Source: Pelagimonas phthalicica
GTDB taxonomy: Bacteria; Pseudomonadota; Alphaproteobacteria; Rhodobacterales; Rhodobacteraceae
Assembly: GCF_004364805.1 (NCBI RefSeq)
Contig: NZ_SOAP01000003.1
Location: 372,001 to 436,000 of the forward strand
Direction: 5' to 3'
Length of the DNA stretch: 64,000 nucleotides
Shown here: positions 3,422 to 60,824 of the stretch, one piece after another
Position numbering within the stretch: the first letter of the stretch is position 1
Layout of the letters: each line of letters begins with the position of its first letter
Translations under genes and position numbers: made by a program
The notes under the pieces: generated by a model
What the model was told of the DNA's origin: nothing
The model's input: the letters and a program-made list of their open reading frames with translations, nothing else
The model's database searches: none

Positions 3422-3781
3422 ATGCGGTATATTCGTTACGCTTTTTACGCAGCGCTCGCAGTGCTTCTTGTAACCGTGTCTTTGGCCAATCGTGACATGG
3501 TGACATTGAACACCTTGCCCGAGGCCGTGGCGGCCATTCCGGGTGTTGGCTGGCTGTCGCAATCGGTTGAGGTGCCGCTGTTTATCGTTGTCCTGGGCAG
3601 CCTGATCCTTGGCGTGTTGCTGGGTGAAGTGCTGGAATGGCTGCGTGAGCACAAGCACCGCGCTGATGCCGCGCAAAAGGGCGCGCAGGTGCGCAAGCTT
3701 GAGCGTGAGCTGAAAAAGACTCAGGCCGAGCGCGACAAGGACAAGGACGAGGTTCTGGCGCTTTTGGATCAGGCCAGCTGA
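3422..3781 (+). CDS. lapA: LapA-domain (DUF1049) inner membrane protein
   Basis: A 119-residue protein with two membrane segments (about residues 3-22 and 45-67) and a charged cytoplasmic coiled-coil tail (RKLERELKKTQAERDKDKDE), the layout of lipopolysaccharide assembly protein A. In E. coli LapA works with LapB to tune LpxC turnover and so LPS synthesis. It starts 3 bases after ihfB. No lapB is adjacent, so the exact role here is by family analogy. Confidence 0.85.
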   Translation: MRYIRYAFYAALAVLLVTVSLANRDMVTLNTLPEAVAAIPGVGWLSQSVEVPLFIVVLGSLILGVLLGEVLEWLREHKHRADAAQKGAQVRKLERELKKTQAERDKDKDEVLALLDQAS

Positions 3782-3810
3782 TCCACTTGTAAAGTTGAGA
3801 ATGCCCTTAT

Positions 3811-3895
3811 AGGGCCGGGGAGGGGGCGCTGCCCCCTCTTGCTTTTCAAGCAATTCACCCCCGGGATATTTGTGCCAAGAAGAAACAGGGCGACA
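3811..3895 (+). repeat. Two-hairpin intergenic repeat, copy 1
   Basis: Stem 1 is GAGGGGGC-GCT-GCCCCCTC (3820-3838), stem 2 TTGCTT-TTC-AAGCAA (3839-3853), then a conserved tail CCCCCGGGATATTTGTGCC followed by AAGAAGAAAC. Related copies lie at 11435-11493 and 40932-40994. It sits between lapA and trpF and may act as a terminator of the ihfB-lapA transcript. Confidence 0.75.
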
Positions 3896-3897
3896 GC

Positions 3898-4557
3898 ATG
3901 GATGTGAAGGTCAAGATTTGCGGTTTGTCGAAACCGGCAGATGTGGAAGCTGTGGCCAAGGCGGGCGCGGCCTATGCAGGGTTTGTGTTCTTTCCCAAGT
4001 CACCGCGCAATGTCAGTGTCGAGCAGGCGCGCGACCTTGCGGTGCTGGCCCCGGTTGGTTTGGCCAAGGTGGCTCTGGTCGTGAATCCGGATAATGCGCT
4101 GCTGGATGAGATCTGCGGCCGCGTGGCCATCGACATATTGCAACTGCATGGCGAGGAAAGCCCCGAGCGCGTCGCCGAGATCCGCAGCCGCTATGGTCTG
4201 CCGGTGATGAAGGCCGTGGGCGTCGCCACTGCCGAGGATCTGGGGCAATTGCCTGCTTATGAGCGTGTCTGTGACCAGATCCTTGTTGATGCCAAAGCGC
4301 CCAAAGGGGCCGATCTGCCCGGCGGCAACGGCTTGGCTTTTGACTGGCGTCTGATTGCTGGGCGGCGTTGGTCGCGCCCTTGGATGCTGGCGGGCGGGCT
4401 AACGCCTGACAATGTCGCGCGCGCCGTGGAACTGACCGGGGCGACCCAGGTCGACGTGTCCTCGGGCGTCGAAAGCGCGCCGGGGCAAAAGAATGCCGGG
4501 CTGATCGCGGAGTTTGTCAGCGCGGCCCAAAGCGCGGGCGCTATTCCCGAACTCTAG
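3898..4557 (+). CDS. trpF: Phosphoribosylanthranilate isomerase
   Basis: A 219-residue TIM barrel that converts N-(5-phosphoribosyl)anthranilate to CdRP in tryptophan synthesis. Visible motifs are VKICGL with the catalytic Cys near residue 7, [28 protein letters not shown] and [14 protein letters not shown], which bind substrate phosphate. Length is normal. In related genomes trpB often comes next; here the following gene is a convergent ArsC-like gene, so trpB must be elsewhere. Confidence 0.95.
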
Positions 4558-7387: not shown

Positions 7388-7428
7388 GAACGACTCTTCT
7401 CGTCTGCGCAAAAGCAACAAGGACGAGA

Positions 7429-8193
7429 TTACTCCCGCAGCGTCCAGCCCCCATCCACCGTCAAGATCTGCCCGGTCAGCCAGGCATTCTCGGCACTGCC
7501 CAGGCGCAGCACCCAAGGCACGATGTCCTCGGTCACCCCGCGCCGCCCCAGAGGGATTTGCTTTGCCTCCTGCGCCTCAATCTGCGCCGCCATCTCGGCG
7601 GGCAGCCCCATCATCCCGGTCAAAGCCCCGGTCTGGACCGGCCCCGGCGCAATGGCGTTCACCCGCACGCCATCCCCGGCAAATTCAAGAGCCCAGGCGC
7701 GGGTCAGGTGTTCCAGCGCCGCTTTGCTCGCCGCATAATGCGCCATCATCGGCGCGTCCTTGCGCGATACCGCGGTGCCAATATTCACAATCGCCCCCTT
7801 GCTCGCTTTCAAGGCCTCCGCCCCGGCCTTCACCAGCATGGATGGCGCGGTGATGTTCACGGCACCCATCTGGCTGATCACCTCTGCGTCATAAGCGGGC
7901 AGGGGCATCGGTTGACCAGCCCCGGCATTGTTGACGATCAGGTCAATCCGTCCCCACCGGGCCAAGGCGCGCGCAACAAGGACCGCGCCAGTTGCCGGAT
8001 CAGCGGCATCCGCCTGCACAGCCTCAATTGCTGCGCTGTTGCCCGCCACCTCTGCCAACCGATCCATATTCCGCCCGGTGATCACCACCTTGGCACCCTG
8101 CCGTACGAGTTCCAGCGCCACGGCTTTGCCTATGCCAGAACTGCCCCCAGTCACAATCGCCACCTTGTCCTGCCACGTGTTGGTACCTGTCAT
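7429..8193 (-). CDS. SDR family NAD(P)-dependent oxidoreductase
   Basis: A 254-residue classical short-chain dehydrogenase. The cofactor motif TGGSSGIGK is at residues 15-23, then VNNAGAG, the catalytic tyrosine/lysine YAASK, and the C-terminal VDGGW. ATG 8193 is chosen because it places the Rossmann motif at the usual distance from the N-terminus; a longer frame to 8376 would add an unrelated extension and overrun the promoter. A MerR-type promoter with a 14-bp palindrome lies about 45-75 bases upstream. Substrate unknown. Confidence 0.93.
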   Translation of the reverse strand: MTGTNTWQDKVAIVTGGSSGIGKAVALELVRQGAKVVITGRNMDRLAEVAGNSAAIEAVQADAADPATGAVLVARALARWGRIDLIVNNAGAGQPMPLPAYDAEVISQMGAVNITAPSMLVKAGAEALKASKGAIVNIGTAVSRKDAPMMAHYAASKAALEHLTRAWALEFAGDGVRVNAIAPGPVQTGALTGMMGLPAEMAAQIEAQEAKQIPLGRRGVTEDIVPWVLRLGSAENAWLTGQILTVDGGWTLRE

Positions 8194-8236
8194 CTCGCTG
8201 CGTCTCCTGTGTTGCAAAATGCTGTCAGGGGGCAGG

Positions 8237-57213: not shown

Positions 57214-58794
57214 TCACAGAATGCGTTTTTCCTCCAAGAGGTCGGGCAGGTCGTTCTCGTACAGGATCACATCATCTTCGTGCAGCTCTTTGGCGATCAA
57301 GGCACGGGCATCGCTAAAGGTTGCAACCTCGATCACCTTGGCCGCGCCGGATTTTGTGCTGTCAACAAAGCTGCGGATACGGTCGGGGTTGACCACATAG
57401 ATCATATCGCATTTCTCGGCGCTGAATTTGCCCAGACGGTCATGCACCCGGTCATGCTCCAGACCCAGTTCGGCAATGCCCGGCGTCACCAATATCCGCC
57501 GACCACCGCGCTGTTTGGCCAGCTTGTCCATCGAGGCAACCGCCGACATAAAGCCCATTTCATTCGAGTTATAGGCATCATCCAGGATCAGGGCCGTACC
57601 CGGGGCACCAACCTTTTGCAGGCGATGCGGGACTTGGGCAACGGTTCGGGTAAAATACGGGATTTGCGCCACAATCTTGGGGTCGATGGTGGCCGCCATC
57701 ACCACGGCGAGGGCCGAGTTCAACACGTTATGTTCGCCCAGCAGCGGCAGTTCATAGGTGATCCCATCAAGATCCGGGTTCTGCGAGCTTAGCGAGATTG
57801 ACCAGGACCCACCGTCAAGCTCTTGGTGGCTGATCACAACATCCGCATCCTCAAACCCAACAGTGACAGCCCGCGCGCCATAGGTTTCGCGGATTTTGGC
57901 AAAAGGGGCGTAATCCAGCAATTTGGCATTCAACACAACCGTGCCGCCCGCCGAACAGACTTCGGTGGCCAGTTCCGATTTGGCTTGGGCAATGGCCTCG
58001 ATACTGCCGAAACGTTCGGTATGCGCATCGCCAACAGCGGTGATAATGCCGTAATTCGGATGCACAAAATCGCAAAGCCGTTTGATTGACCCGATCCCAT
58101 AAGCGCCCATTTCCGCAACGAAATACTTGTGCGACCATTGCAGGCGCTGGCGGATATGACGGGTGTGACCCAGAACTGTGTTGATTGATCCGGGGCTGTA
58201 ATAGACCGGGCCAGAGGCCTCAAGGATCTCGGCAAACATGTGTTTTACAGTGGTTTTGCCAAAGGAACCGGTGATGCCGATACGGATCGGGTCAAGCCGT
58301 TCCAGCTTGGCCCGCGCCTCGCTCTGGTACCCCTCGTTGATCTTGACCTGAAGTGGTTGCAGCACTTTGTTGGCGACGATCATCACAAAAGGCGCGGCAT
58401 GCAGGGCGACCAGCGCGCAAAGCGGGTGCAGCAGCGTCAATAGCGCCAGCACGGCCACGCTGCCAAAGGTCAGCCAATAGATCCGCATGGCACGCTCGGT
58501 CCGCGCCAGGGCCTTTTTGAAACGATGTTGGCCTTCGAGATAGGCCAGCACGACAAAGGCAACCGACAGCAGCAAGGTTGTCAGCACCGCCCCCATGCCA
58601 TTTGCCCCAAGCACGACCGCCACAAGCGTCGCAACTGTTGCTTTGACATCAAACAGGCGCACATCCGACCAGGCCCCGACGAACCGTTTGCCGTCATATT
58701 CCTCTTGCTGGAAATAGGTCAGCAGGGTGCGCACGCGGGTGAAGAGCAGAAAGATCAGGCTTGCGAGCAAGCATAGTTTGGCAAAAATCATCAT
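57214..58794 (-). CDS. Membrane-anchored MurF-like Mur ligase
   Basis: A 526-residue protein. Residues about 1-140 hold four hydrophobic segments; then a Mur ligase core with P-loop GITGSFGKTTVKHM (near residue 175), the central motif YYSPGSINTVLGHTR and EMGAYGIGSIKRLCDFV, and the C-terminal domain with ILDDAYNSNEMGF. In MurF the last motif is DxYNANP; here it is DAYNSNEM. So it should ligate an amino acid or dipeptide to a carrier at the membrane but is unlikely to be the housekeeping MurF. Coupled by 4 bases to the alpha/beta hydrolase gene. Confidence 0.85.
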   Translation of the reverse strand: MMIFAKLCLLASLIFLLFTRVRTLLTYFQQEEYDGKRFVGAWSDVRLFDVKATVATLVAVVLGANGMGAVLTTLLLSVAFVVLAYLEGQHRFKKALARTERAMRIYWLTFGSVAVLALLTLLHPLCALVALHAAPFVMIVANKVLQPLQVKINEGYQSEARAKLERLDPIRIGITGSFGKTTVKHMFAEILEASGPVYYSPGSINTVLGHTRHIRQRLQWSHKYFVAEMGAYGIGSIKRLCDFVHPNYGIITAVGDAHTERFGSIEAIAQAKSELATEVCSAGGTVVLNAKLLDYAPFAKIRETYGARAVTVGFEDADVVISHQELDGGSWSISLSSQNPDLDGITYELPLLGEHNVLNSALAVVMAATIDPKIVAQIPYFTRTVAQVPHRLQKVGAPGTALILDDAYNSNEMGFMSAVASMDKLAKQRGGRRILVTPGIAELGLEHDRVHDRLGKFSAEKCDMIYVVNPDRIRSFVDSTKSGAAKVIEVATFSDARALIAKELHEDDVILYENDLPDLLEEKRIL

Positions 58795-59549
58795 TCACCC
58801 AACTCCTGCAGCGCGTCTTTGAGCATCAATGTCATTTGGTGGCGACCACGGGACAGAATGGTCAGGTGGTCATATTCGGGGCATTCAAGATAGGTCGAGT
58901 TTGGCACCAGCGCGTGCATCTTCTTACCGATTTCTGGCGGCGTTTCCGTATCGTTGGCCCCGTATAGGAATGTGGTCGGGCAAGTGATCGAGGTCAGCTG
59001 CTCAGTCTGGTTCTCCTGAACGGCCTTGATGAAAATATCGCGCAACCCGCTTTCACGGCTGGCAACGTAATCGGCGCTGCCAAACTGCTTTTCCAGCGCG
59101 ATGATCTCATCTTCGGAATTTGCCGCGGCCTTTTTGCGTTTGAATTGCCAACTGCGCAGCTTGCCCCGCCATTTCTTGGTCATCGGCACGTCGCGCGGCA
59201 CACCGGCCCCGGCCACGACGAGTAAATGGGCCACCGGGCTGTCAGACATCTGCGCTAAACGCAGCCCGACCCGGCCGCCAAAGCTGTGTCCGACCCAGAT
59301 GTAGCGCCTCAACCCCAGCTCTTGTTCCAGCATGTCGCGGGTTGCCTTGGCATAATCCTGCGTGTCCCAGGCCGCTTCGGGGCGGGGGCTTGCGCCAAAT
59401 CCTGGCAGGTCCAGCAAGATCAGTTTGGCGCGATCGCCCAACAGTTCTGCAACCGGGATGAAATCGCGATGGTCTCGCGCCCAGCCATGGCCAAAAACAA
59501 TCGGAAACCCGTCCTTGTTGCCCAGGATCTCATAGTTCATCAATGACAT
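58791..59549 (-). CDS. Alpha/beta hydrolase linked to the Mur ligase
   Basis: A 252-residue protein with VFGHGWARDHRDFIP (oxyanion loop), LDLPGFGASP, nucleophile GHSFGGRVGLRLAQ and the histidine region CPEYDHLTILSRGRHQ. It is the first gene of a two-gene operon with the MurF-like ligase and is divergent from the Ddl-like gene. It might hydrolyse an ester or amide formed or removed by the ligases. Function otherwise unknown. Confidence 0.86.
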   Translation of the reverse strand: MSLMNYEILGNKDGFPIVFGHGWARDHRDFIPVAELLGDRAKLILLDLPGFGASPRPEAAWDTQDYAKATRDMLEQELGLRRYIWVGHSFGGRVGLRLAQMSDSPVAHLLVVAGAGVPRDVPMTKKWRGKLRSWQFKRKKAAANSEDEIIALEKQFGSADYVASRESGLRDIFIKAVQENQTEQLTSITCPTTFLYGANDTETPPEIGKKMHALVPNSTYLECPEYDHLTILSRGRHQMTLMLKDALQELGE

Positions 59550-59651
59550 TTCTACCGCTCAGCATGCTGCTTTTTCACTACCATATGTAGTGCTTTGAAT
59601 TCTTGTAATGTATATGGTGAACCGAGACCAGATCGAAGAGGGGCAATTGCC

Positions 59652-60824
59652 TTGGATAAGCTGAACATAGCCGTCATTTTTGGTGGGCCGAGCCAGGAAC
59701 ACGATGTCAGTGTCGTGAGCGCGCAACAGTTGATGGATGCGGCGGATGTTCGGACAATGAACATTGTCCCGGTCTATATGAATTTTGAGGGTCGGTTTTT
59801 TCACGGTCCAACACTGCGTCGTTTAGAGCGTTACAAGCCAAGCCCGCCAGGTCTGCGCGAAGTGTTCTTTGCCTGGGATGACGCCGGCCCTTGCCTGAAA
59901 TCCCATGATGGCAGCTGGCGCTGTGGGATTGACTGCGCCGTCCCGGTCTTTCACGGCCCGTTTGGCGAAGACGGGCGTCTTGCCGGGATGCTCGAAATCG
60001 TTGGCATCCCGACCACCGGGTTTTCGGCCACCAACTCTGCCATTGCCATGCGCAAGGATGCGACCAAATCGCTGGTGCAATCGGTTGGGGTGAATGTGCT
60101 GCCGCATGTGGTTGTCCAGACCAGCCAATTGGCAGATCCCGAGCCGGTGATCGACGAGATCGAGGAAAAGCTGTCTTTCCCTGTGGTGGTCAAACCGGCC
60201 AATCTCGGCTCAAGCATCGGCGTCGGCTTGGCCAAGGACCGCGAAACCCTGCTGATCCACCTGCAAGGGGCGCTGCGTGAAGACACCTTTGCCCTGGTCG
60301 AACCACAGGTGCAAAACCTCGAAGAGCTCAACATCGCCGTCATGTTCCGCGATGGCAAAACCTGCTTTTCCGCGATTGAGCGGCCCAAGTCGTCAGCCGA
60401 GCTGCTGGATTTCCGCGAAAAATACCTGTCGCAGGAAAGCAGCGGCAATGGTGGTGGGCAGGGCAAGCTGGGGGCGGCCATTGTGCCATCGCAGGGCATG
60501 TTGTCCCTGACACGCGACATCAACCCGGATCTGGACCCGGAGCTGCAGGCGCGTCTTTATGACTATGCCGAGAAAGCCTTTGCCATCCTTGGACAGCGCG
60601 GCGCGCCGCGGATGGACTTTATGACCGACAAGGCCACTGGCGAGCTTTGGTTCAACGAGATCAACCCAATGCCGGGGTCTTATGGGTTCTTCCTGTGGGA
60701 GGCGGCAAATCCACAGGTGCTGTTCCCGGATCTGGTGGCGCATCTGGTTCAGGAAGCCCTCGGTGACACCGTGAAATCATTCACCGATCCAGTGCCGCAA
60801 GACGCCTATCTGCTGCCGCGCTAG
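59652..60824 (+). CDS. D-alanine-D-alanine ligase-like ATP-grasp protein
   Basis: A 390-residue protein starting MDKLNIAVIFGGPSQEHDVS (Glu of the D-Ala(1) site). VVVKPANLGSSIGVGLAKD binds ATP, and APRMDFMTDKATGELWFNEI holds the Mg and substrate arginine. The Ddl segment TSHSL, whose serine touches the second D-alanine in E. coli DdlB, reads YGFFL here (PGSYGFFLWE), and a Gly-rich loop (SSGNGGGQGKL) replaces part of the omega loop. So the second substrate is probably not D-alanine. TTG 59652 is preferred (GAGGGG upstream). It is divergent from the hydrolase/Mur ligase pair. Confidence 0.85.
   Translation: MDKLNIAVIFGGPSQEHDVSVVSAQQLMDAADVRTMNIVPVYMNFEGRFFHGPTLRRLERYKPSPPGLREVFFAWDDAGPCLKSHDGSWRCGIDCAVPVFHGPFGEDGRLAGMLEIVGIPTTGFSATNSAIAMRKDATKSLVQSVGVNVLPHVVVQTSQLADPEPVIDEIEEKLSFPVVVKPANLGSSIGVGLAKDRETLLIHLQGALREDTFALVEPQVQNLEELNIAVMFRDGKTCFSAIERPKSSAELLDFREKYLSQESSGNGGGQGKLGAAIVPSQGMLSLTRDINPDLDPELQARLYDYAEKAFAILGQRGAPRMDFMTDKATGELWFNEINPMPGSYGFFLWEAANPQVLFPDLVAHLVQEALGDTVKSFTDPVPQDAYLLPR

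Follow-up and report, generated by a model that had tools for sequence, protein, structure and literature searches.

A membrane-anchored MurF-like ligase, an alpha/beta hydrolase and a Ddl-like ligase appear to stand in for murF and ddl in some Alphaproteobacteria

Introduction

Bacteria with a cell wall are generally considered unable to live without MurF and Ddl, and both enzymes are under study as drug targets. Departures from the standard enzymes are known, and in the Van resistance clusters a variant ligase is combined with a hydrolase. A second precedent is MurT, described in passages of two papers (PMC6113224, PMC6085368) as lacking the uridine diphosphate (UDP)-binding domain, as structurally nearest to MurF and as amidating lipid I/II, and no UDP precursor, in vitro; the authors of one of the MurT structures considered there that a UDP-binding domain would likely clash with the membrane. 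Here we analyse a cassette of three genes in Pelagimonas phthalicica (Rhodobacteraceae; RefSeq assembly GCF_004364805.1), encoding a membrane-anchored MurF-like ligase (TM-MurF), an alpha/beta hydrolase and a Ddl-like ATP-grasp ligase. It lies in a window of 64,000 nucleotides (contig C3, NZ_SOAP01000003.1, positions 372001-436000) of a genome of 4,886,351 bases that is 99.97% complete. Sequence comparisons suggest that murF and ddl have been lost from some marine and environmental bacteria, which would rely on this cassette instead.

The locus shares with MurT/GatD a Mur ligase without a UDP-binding domain and a hydrolase partner. However, MurT has a short flexible N-terminus, a zinc ribbon and a class I glutaminase partner (GatD), whereas the cassette ligase has a membrane domain, an alpha/beta hydrolase rather than a glutaminase as its neighbour, and a Ddl-type gene nearby. 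With the Van clusters it shares a mobile variant dipeptide ligase and a hydrolase, but the hydrolase is of the alpha/beta type and not VanX or VanY, the cassette brings its own MurF-like ligase, and the old ddl and murF are lost. The cassette is a distinct variant of MurF/Ddl. In the open-access PubMed Central (PMC) literature, which leaves out most subscription papers, our search turned up no report of this cassette or of a membrane-anchored MurF; the relevant part of PMC9602339 concerns ordinary murE/murF.

Results

Canonical murF and ddl are missing from the cassette-bearing genome

TM-MurF (57214-58794, minus strand, 526 amino acids) matches Pfam Mur_ligase_M/C and the NCBIfam murF model, the hydrolase (58791-59549, minus strand, 252 amino acids) matches Pfam Abhydrolase, and the Ddl-like protein (59652-60824, plus strand, TTG start, 390 amino acids, or 409 if translation starts at 59595) matches Pfam Dala_Dala_lig_N/C. 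These family matches support the three assignments of a first-pass annotation made from the letters of the window, and the genes lie at the places and in the divergent arrangement that it gave. The coupling of hydrolase and ligase that it described is real, the stop codon of the former and the start codon of the latter sharing four bases (ATGA, 58791-58794, minus strand).

That annotation had also taken the two ligases to be extra copies beside an ordinary MurF and Ddl, and this is where it fails. A whole-genome search with the MurF model found no murF besides the cassette ligase; the four other matches were murE, murC and murD of the division and cell wall (dcw) cluster and a weak match on contig C4 (29 bits), which we infer to be folC. 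Similarly, the Ddl model matched the cassette gene (in two pieces) across the whole genome and otherwise gave only weaker matches of at most 47.4 bits. The dcw cluster reads rsmH, ftsI, murE, mraY, murD, ftsW, murG, murC, murB, ftsQ, with names assigned from protein likeness and gene order and in part presumed; there is no murF between murE and mraY and no ddl between murB and ftsQ. An alanine-rich protein of 538 amino acids is encoded between murC and murB (L016, 3067-4683); the congener G508 has a counterpart of 65% identity at the same position, and the relative G044 a partial match of 30%.

Both empty sites carry deletion scars. Compared with G508, ddl is left with codons 1-39 between murB and ftsQ, and murF with roughly 60 bases of its 3' end between murE and mraY. 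A differently cut ddl remnant, comprising codons 7-63 and the last codons, is present in G044. The remnants in both genomes indicate that the old genes were deleted, with endpoints that differ between the two. The congeners G508 and G679 have both murF and ddl at these dcw sites and no cassette ligase, and MurE, MurC and MraY of G508 are 91-95% identical to those of the window's genome. Since no other murF or ddl was matched in this genome, the three genes now look like its cell-wall enzymes, and on these sequence comparisons it is very likely that they are a replacement of the housekeeping murF and ddl.

Distribution of the cassette

A family survey of 120 genomes, one per genus, gave a MurF over the cut-off in 114; four genomes (G000, G008, G037 and G044) had the cassette type only, and two incomplete ones (85 and 94% complete) gave no MurF match at E 1e-38. 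A MurF over the cut-off was accordingly present in 0/4 cassette genomes and 114/116 others (Fisher 1.8e-6, kinship ignored), and a Ddl match of non-cassette type in 0/4 and 116/116 (Fisher 1.2e-7, kinship ignored). Of these 116 Ddl matches, 99 exceed the cut-off, 15 fall just short of it at nearly full length, and two (G068, G022) are fragments only. Two genomes have a second, higher-scoring Ddl gene besides another ddl (G092:C1:88519-89526 and G046:C32:5335-6354).

In wider draws from the family, the class and the phylum, two to four candidates were scored per listed genome and the counts are lower bounds. The ligase was found in 5 of 394 genomes of the family, the fifth being G489, in which no canonical murF or ddl was matched and only the cassette types were present. 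The class draw gave 23 of 385 genomes, the window's own included, and the 22 others span 14 further families with genome sizes of 0.9-3.5 Mb. Altogether, the cassette-type ligase was detected in 27 genomes of 15 alphaproteobacterial families. Among 299 genomes drawn from the phylum only the window's genome passed E <= 1e-50, which suggests, for a sample confined to this phylum, that the ligase is rare outside Alphaproteobacteria. Not counted are the Mur ligases without an N-domain in G002 and G089: their similarity to the window's ligase is confined to its catalytic part (27 and 30% identity), and neither the hydrolase nor the Ddl of the cassette is matched within the stretches read. Both genomes have a canonical MurF; the extra gene overlaps an S11 D,D-carboxypeptidase gene in G002 (L051, 16-1329) and lies by glycosyl- and pyruvyltransferase genes in G089 (L052, 5092-6465).

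A one-sequence scan of genome contigs matched only an Antarcticimicrobium metagenome-assembled genome (MAG) and a short Chlamydiia piece with the ordinary acceptor motif. On a Chlamydiia MAG fragment (L015), an open reading frame at 2529-3527 matches ADP-ribosyltransferase families and lies near a miaA-type gene and a partial Ddl. Scans of viral contigs gave no relatives, and a phage origin was rejected. A plasmid origin was equally rejected: all matched plasmid records were less than 60% identical and none covered 80% of either ligase queried. Among the plasmid matches listed (the best 15 of 550, 15 of 100, 12 of 121 and 12 of 592), the named ones were murF, Ddl or Van ligases, together with one 'Mur ligase family protein' from Gemmobacter. 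The Monoglobus match in the plasmid search is a gene by murI, and that from Acetoanaerobium has the ordinary acceptor motif.

Fate of canonical murF and ddl in the 27 genomes

No canonical MurF was found in 17 of the 27 genomes, seven have a derivative without a catalytic motif, and three have a full-length MurF over the cut-off. The P-loop is missing from the derivatives of G699, G910, G818 and G722 (fused to MurE) and of G974, and is present, with no recognisable DDxYNxN motif, in those of G829 (fused to MurE) and G879. Fusions of MurE with a MurF remnant (L129 397-2670, L130 3968-6280, L131 5377-7644, L127 10154-12565) keep the N-terminal part of MurF, but their P-loop is gone and their C-terminal region is wholly or partly missing; from their sequences, these remnants in cassette-ligase genomes are apparent pseudoenzymes. 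A full-length MurF with a P-loop stands beside the cassette ligase in G858 (DDSFNAN) and in G781 and G1034 (DES[YF]NAS); the latter two were missed by the motif pattern and are nevertheless judged functional from sequence. As for ddl, the canonical gene was found between murB and ftsQ in 0/16 of the class-level genomes in which both flanking genes were read.

The three genes are co-inherited

Searching for the three-gene neighbourhood across Alphaproteobacteria showed the module to be conserved, as its reading as one unit in the first-pass annotation would have it. The hydrolase adjoins the ligase in 25/27 genomes (truncated at a contig end in two, and about 0.8 kb away in G691) and was not found beside it in G738 and G879, and the Ddl adjoins the ligase in 20/27. 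Pairwise distances among the three proteins correlate at 0.81-0.89, and at 0.75-0.83 after removing MraY, with pairs that are non-independent. The Ddl-like gene is divergent from the ligase/hydrolase pair in the window, and all three genes are on one strand in G037. In G008 (L048), the hydrolase and the Ddl are separated by a MipA family gene (7401-8198), and the ligase is followed by a gene (3619-4470) whose match to a peptidoglycan-binding domain is below threshold.

Comparison of the window with four other family loci showed differing flanks, with only these three genes in common, apart from a place nearby in L014 that matches weakly (28-37% identity). The genes had been described as standing apart from any cell-wall cluster, which is true of the window but not of three other genomes, where the cassette lies inside or against dcw genes: in G974 and G1034 it occupies the place between murB and ftsQ that is the ddl site of G508 and G679, and in G897 the ligase is beside murB.

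A tree was built from the middle and C-terminal domains, with 14 of 29 family sequences plus G508, G1034, G781 and G858 as the canonical set. The 27 cassette-type ligases form one clade (97/91) beside the 18 canonical MurFs (100/99); G706, the canonical G858 and the outgroups were flagged as long branches whose joins may be false. The other four family ligases group with G882 and G783 (100/100), and G008 falls outside this clade, which implies that the ligase either entered the family two or more times or was present early and lost very often. The tree thus suggests that the ligase arrived in the family at least twice. Taken together, these sequence patterns make the cassette seem mobile, repeatedly gained and spread as a unit.

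The ligase carries a predicted membrane domain in place of the UDP-binding domain

TM-MurF resembles MurF, the UDP-N-acetylmuramic acid (UDP-MurNAc)-tripeptide:D-alanyl-D-alanine ligase (TIGR01143, PDB 1gg4), in its middle and C-terminal domains, its P-loop, its DDxYNxN motif and its conserved His and Lys; murF is its top Mur ligase model, the canonical MurFs are its sister clade, and the nearest solved chains are MurFs. It differs in its membrane domain, in the lack of a detectable UDP-binding domain, in its separate clade and in a score below the curated cut-off (203.6 bits to TIGR01143, cut-off 288.6; 190.6-237.8 bits across the 27 cassette-type ligases). No match to the Mur N-terminal, UDP-MurNAc-binding domain was found, the Pfam matches starting at residue 173 and the TIGR01143 match at profile position 59. 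Instead, as the first-pass annotation had said, the ligase has a membrane domain of its own. Residues 1-150 (58345-58794, minus strand) contain three hydrophobic blocks, which hydropathy averaged over the 27 aligned sequences predicts to form about five helices. Basic residues at 16-55, at 86-105 and after 150 would put the catalytic part in the cytosol.

The ATP-binding P-loop (TGSFGKTT, residues 175-182, 58249-58272, minus strand) and the DDAYNSNE motif (residues 405-412, 57559-57582, minus strand) belong to a catalytic set that is kept in 27/27 ligases: GS[FY]GKT, DD[ASG][YF]N[SA]N, His258, Lys272 and Arg391. The sequence DAYNSNEM, earlier singled out as a deviation, is present, but DAYNSN is not unusual; the canonical MurF of a congener reads DDAYNSNP, and P is also found at that position in 17 of the 27 cassette-type ligases. 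In the membrane domain, a QQEEY motif (residues 29-33, 58696-58710, minus strand) follows helix 1; its Q29 and Y33 are invariant (27/27), and R20, K93 and K94 are kept in 26/27.

AlphaFold2 models from two-sequence alignments had mean predicted local distance difference test (pLDDT) scores of 50.8 and 31.7 and were not used. A cyanophycin-synthetase-like pair was rejected (only 28.6 of 850 bits), as was an anti-phage defence system (PADLOC, 0 families for each of the three proteins).

The Ddl-like enzyme has an altered acceptor segment

The Ddl-like protein shares the N and C domains of Ddl (TIGR01205) and Van ligases and their residues for donor D-alanine (D-Ala), ATP and Mg, but has a shorter acceptor loop, F or Y for the acceptor Ser and an omega-loop insertion. 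Its best NCBIfam model is Ddl TIGR01205 at 223.1 bits, below the curated cut-off of 245.65. Donor and catalytic residues (E16, S187, S188, K257, Y258, R320, E336, N338) are kept in 20/20 cassette-type Ddls, among them equivalents of DdlB Glu15, Ser150, Tyr216, Arg255 and Asn272, a numbering and mapping that are partly presumed. The replacement of the TSHSL segment by YGFFL noted earlier is present here (SYGFFLW, residues 343-349, 60678-60698, plus strand) and is general, the TSHSL/TPTSL-type segment having become (S/G)xxx(F/Y)L(W/F) in 20/20. The position of DdlB Ser281, which we take to hold the second D-Ala, is F in 13/20 and Y in 7/20, within a shortened loop, and an insertion in the omega-loop region was seen against one canonical Ddl.

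VanA has His at the Tyr216 position; the Tyr216 equivalent (Y258) is kept in 20/20, and a Van enzyme of the D-Ala-D-lactate type was rejected. The top PDB match is 4fu0, identified as VanG in a passage of PMC7691350, which also describes DdlB Ser150 and Tyr216 as conserved in enzymes making only D-Ala-D-Ala. S11 D,D-carboxypeptidases are kept in 6/6 genomes searched, of which five have the cassette and one lacks it; this is in keeping with a D,D end that has not changed. In the hydrolase, the Ser89-Asp200-His228 triad is intact and conserved in relatives, Ser89 being present in 23/23 hydrolases with that region.

Discussion

We propose that a horizontally moving gene set substitutes for the last part of peptidoglycan stem-peptide synthesis. 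A D-Ala-D-Ala-type dipeptide would be made by the Ddl-like enzyme and joined, with ATP, to muramyl-tripeptide by the membrane-anchored ligase; the alpha/beta hydrolase would assist, perhaps in removing or providing one of the ligase's substrates. By analogy, our guess is that it either releases the ligase substrate, as GatD does for MurT, or clears unwanted dipeptide, as VanX does. D-Ala-D-Ala is the probable product, and that the cassette replaces the housekeeping enzymes and also makes D-Ala-D-Ala is reasonably likely as a joint statement.

Since the membrane domain stands in place of the UDP-binding domain, the ligase may work, like MurT, after MraY on lipid I/II-tripeptide rather than on UDP-MurNAc-tripeptide; a lipid-linked substrate has, by this analogy, about an even chance. 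Tentatively, the stem peptide would then be finished after lipid attachment, with MraY, and perhaps MurG, handling the tripeptide and TM-MurF adding the dipeptide to lipid I/II at the inner leaflet.

Several observations weigh against our overall proposal. MraY is 95% identical, and MurG about 86%, to the enzymes of a congener that uses canonical MurF, and MraY thus shows no visible adaptation to a tripeptide substrate. The three genomes with both the ligase and a full-length canonical MurF show that the cassette is not always a replacement. In 7/27 genomes the Ddl was not found by the ligase (G882, G783, G722 and G879, and, at or near contig ends, G738, G897 and G829). Correlations are also seen between the cassette proteins and wall markers (MraY 0.48-0.69, MurC 0.55-0.75). 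Eight of the 17 MurF-less genomes are 63-96% complete, the other nine 99-100%. Finally, whole-genome absence of ddl covers the five family genomes, and the class-level genomes are covered at the dcw site only.

The little-changed MraY and MurG favour an account in which the same replacement uses ordinary chemistry, with TM-MurF taking soluble UDP-MurNAc-tripeptide, the membrane domain only tethering it by MraY/MurG, and UDP-MurNAc-pentapeptide as the product. This competes with the lipid-linked step and leaves the replacement itself untouched. A catalytic core closest to MurF and a Ddl with the donor site and the Ser150/Tyr216 equivalents kept are in keeping with it, but no UDP-binding domain was found and the conserved polar and basic residues Q29, Y33, R20, K93 and K94 cluster at the presumed membrane face; we regard ordinary chemistry as a possible, though rather unlikely, account.

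Less likely still is that the cassette gives a wall with another terminal residue (D-Ala-X) and tolerance of D-cycloserine or another wall-targeting agent, and that it displaced the old genes thereby. The change of the acceptor Ser to F/Y in all 20 Ddls, the shortened loop, the seeming mobility and repeated gain of the cassette, and the known integron-borne Ddl variants conferring D-cycloserine resistance (PMC7691350) would all accord with such a wall. However, the D,D-carboxypeptidases are kept, so are the Ser150 and Tyr216 equivalents, which the same paper ties to D-Ala-D-Ala-only enzymes, and in three genomes the ligase occurs together with a full-length canonical MurF. The idea that the cassette is an accessory that adds a different cap to a membrane or wall carrier while peptidoglycan is made in the normal way would fit G781, G1034 and G858, but it is highly improbable, and we rejected it for the window's genome, where no other murF or ddl was matched and both have left deletion scars.

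The preferred reading, replacement of murF and ddl by the cassette with completion of the stem peptide perhaps on the lipid carrier, has several consequences. Where annotation is used to call wall genes missing or duplicated, the cassette would lead to wrong conclusions. It appears to have taken the place of both murF and ddl more than once in one family, and widely in Alphaproteobacteria, which would make this step exchangeable, and a Mur ligase reaction may lie on the membrane side of MraY. If true, completion after lipid attachment would reorder the textbook pathway, and a repeatedly transferred cassette would displace two essential genes at once. These bacteria would offer a natural system for asking whether UDP-MurNAc-pentapeptide is required.

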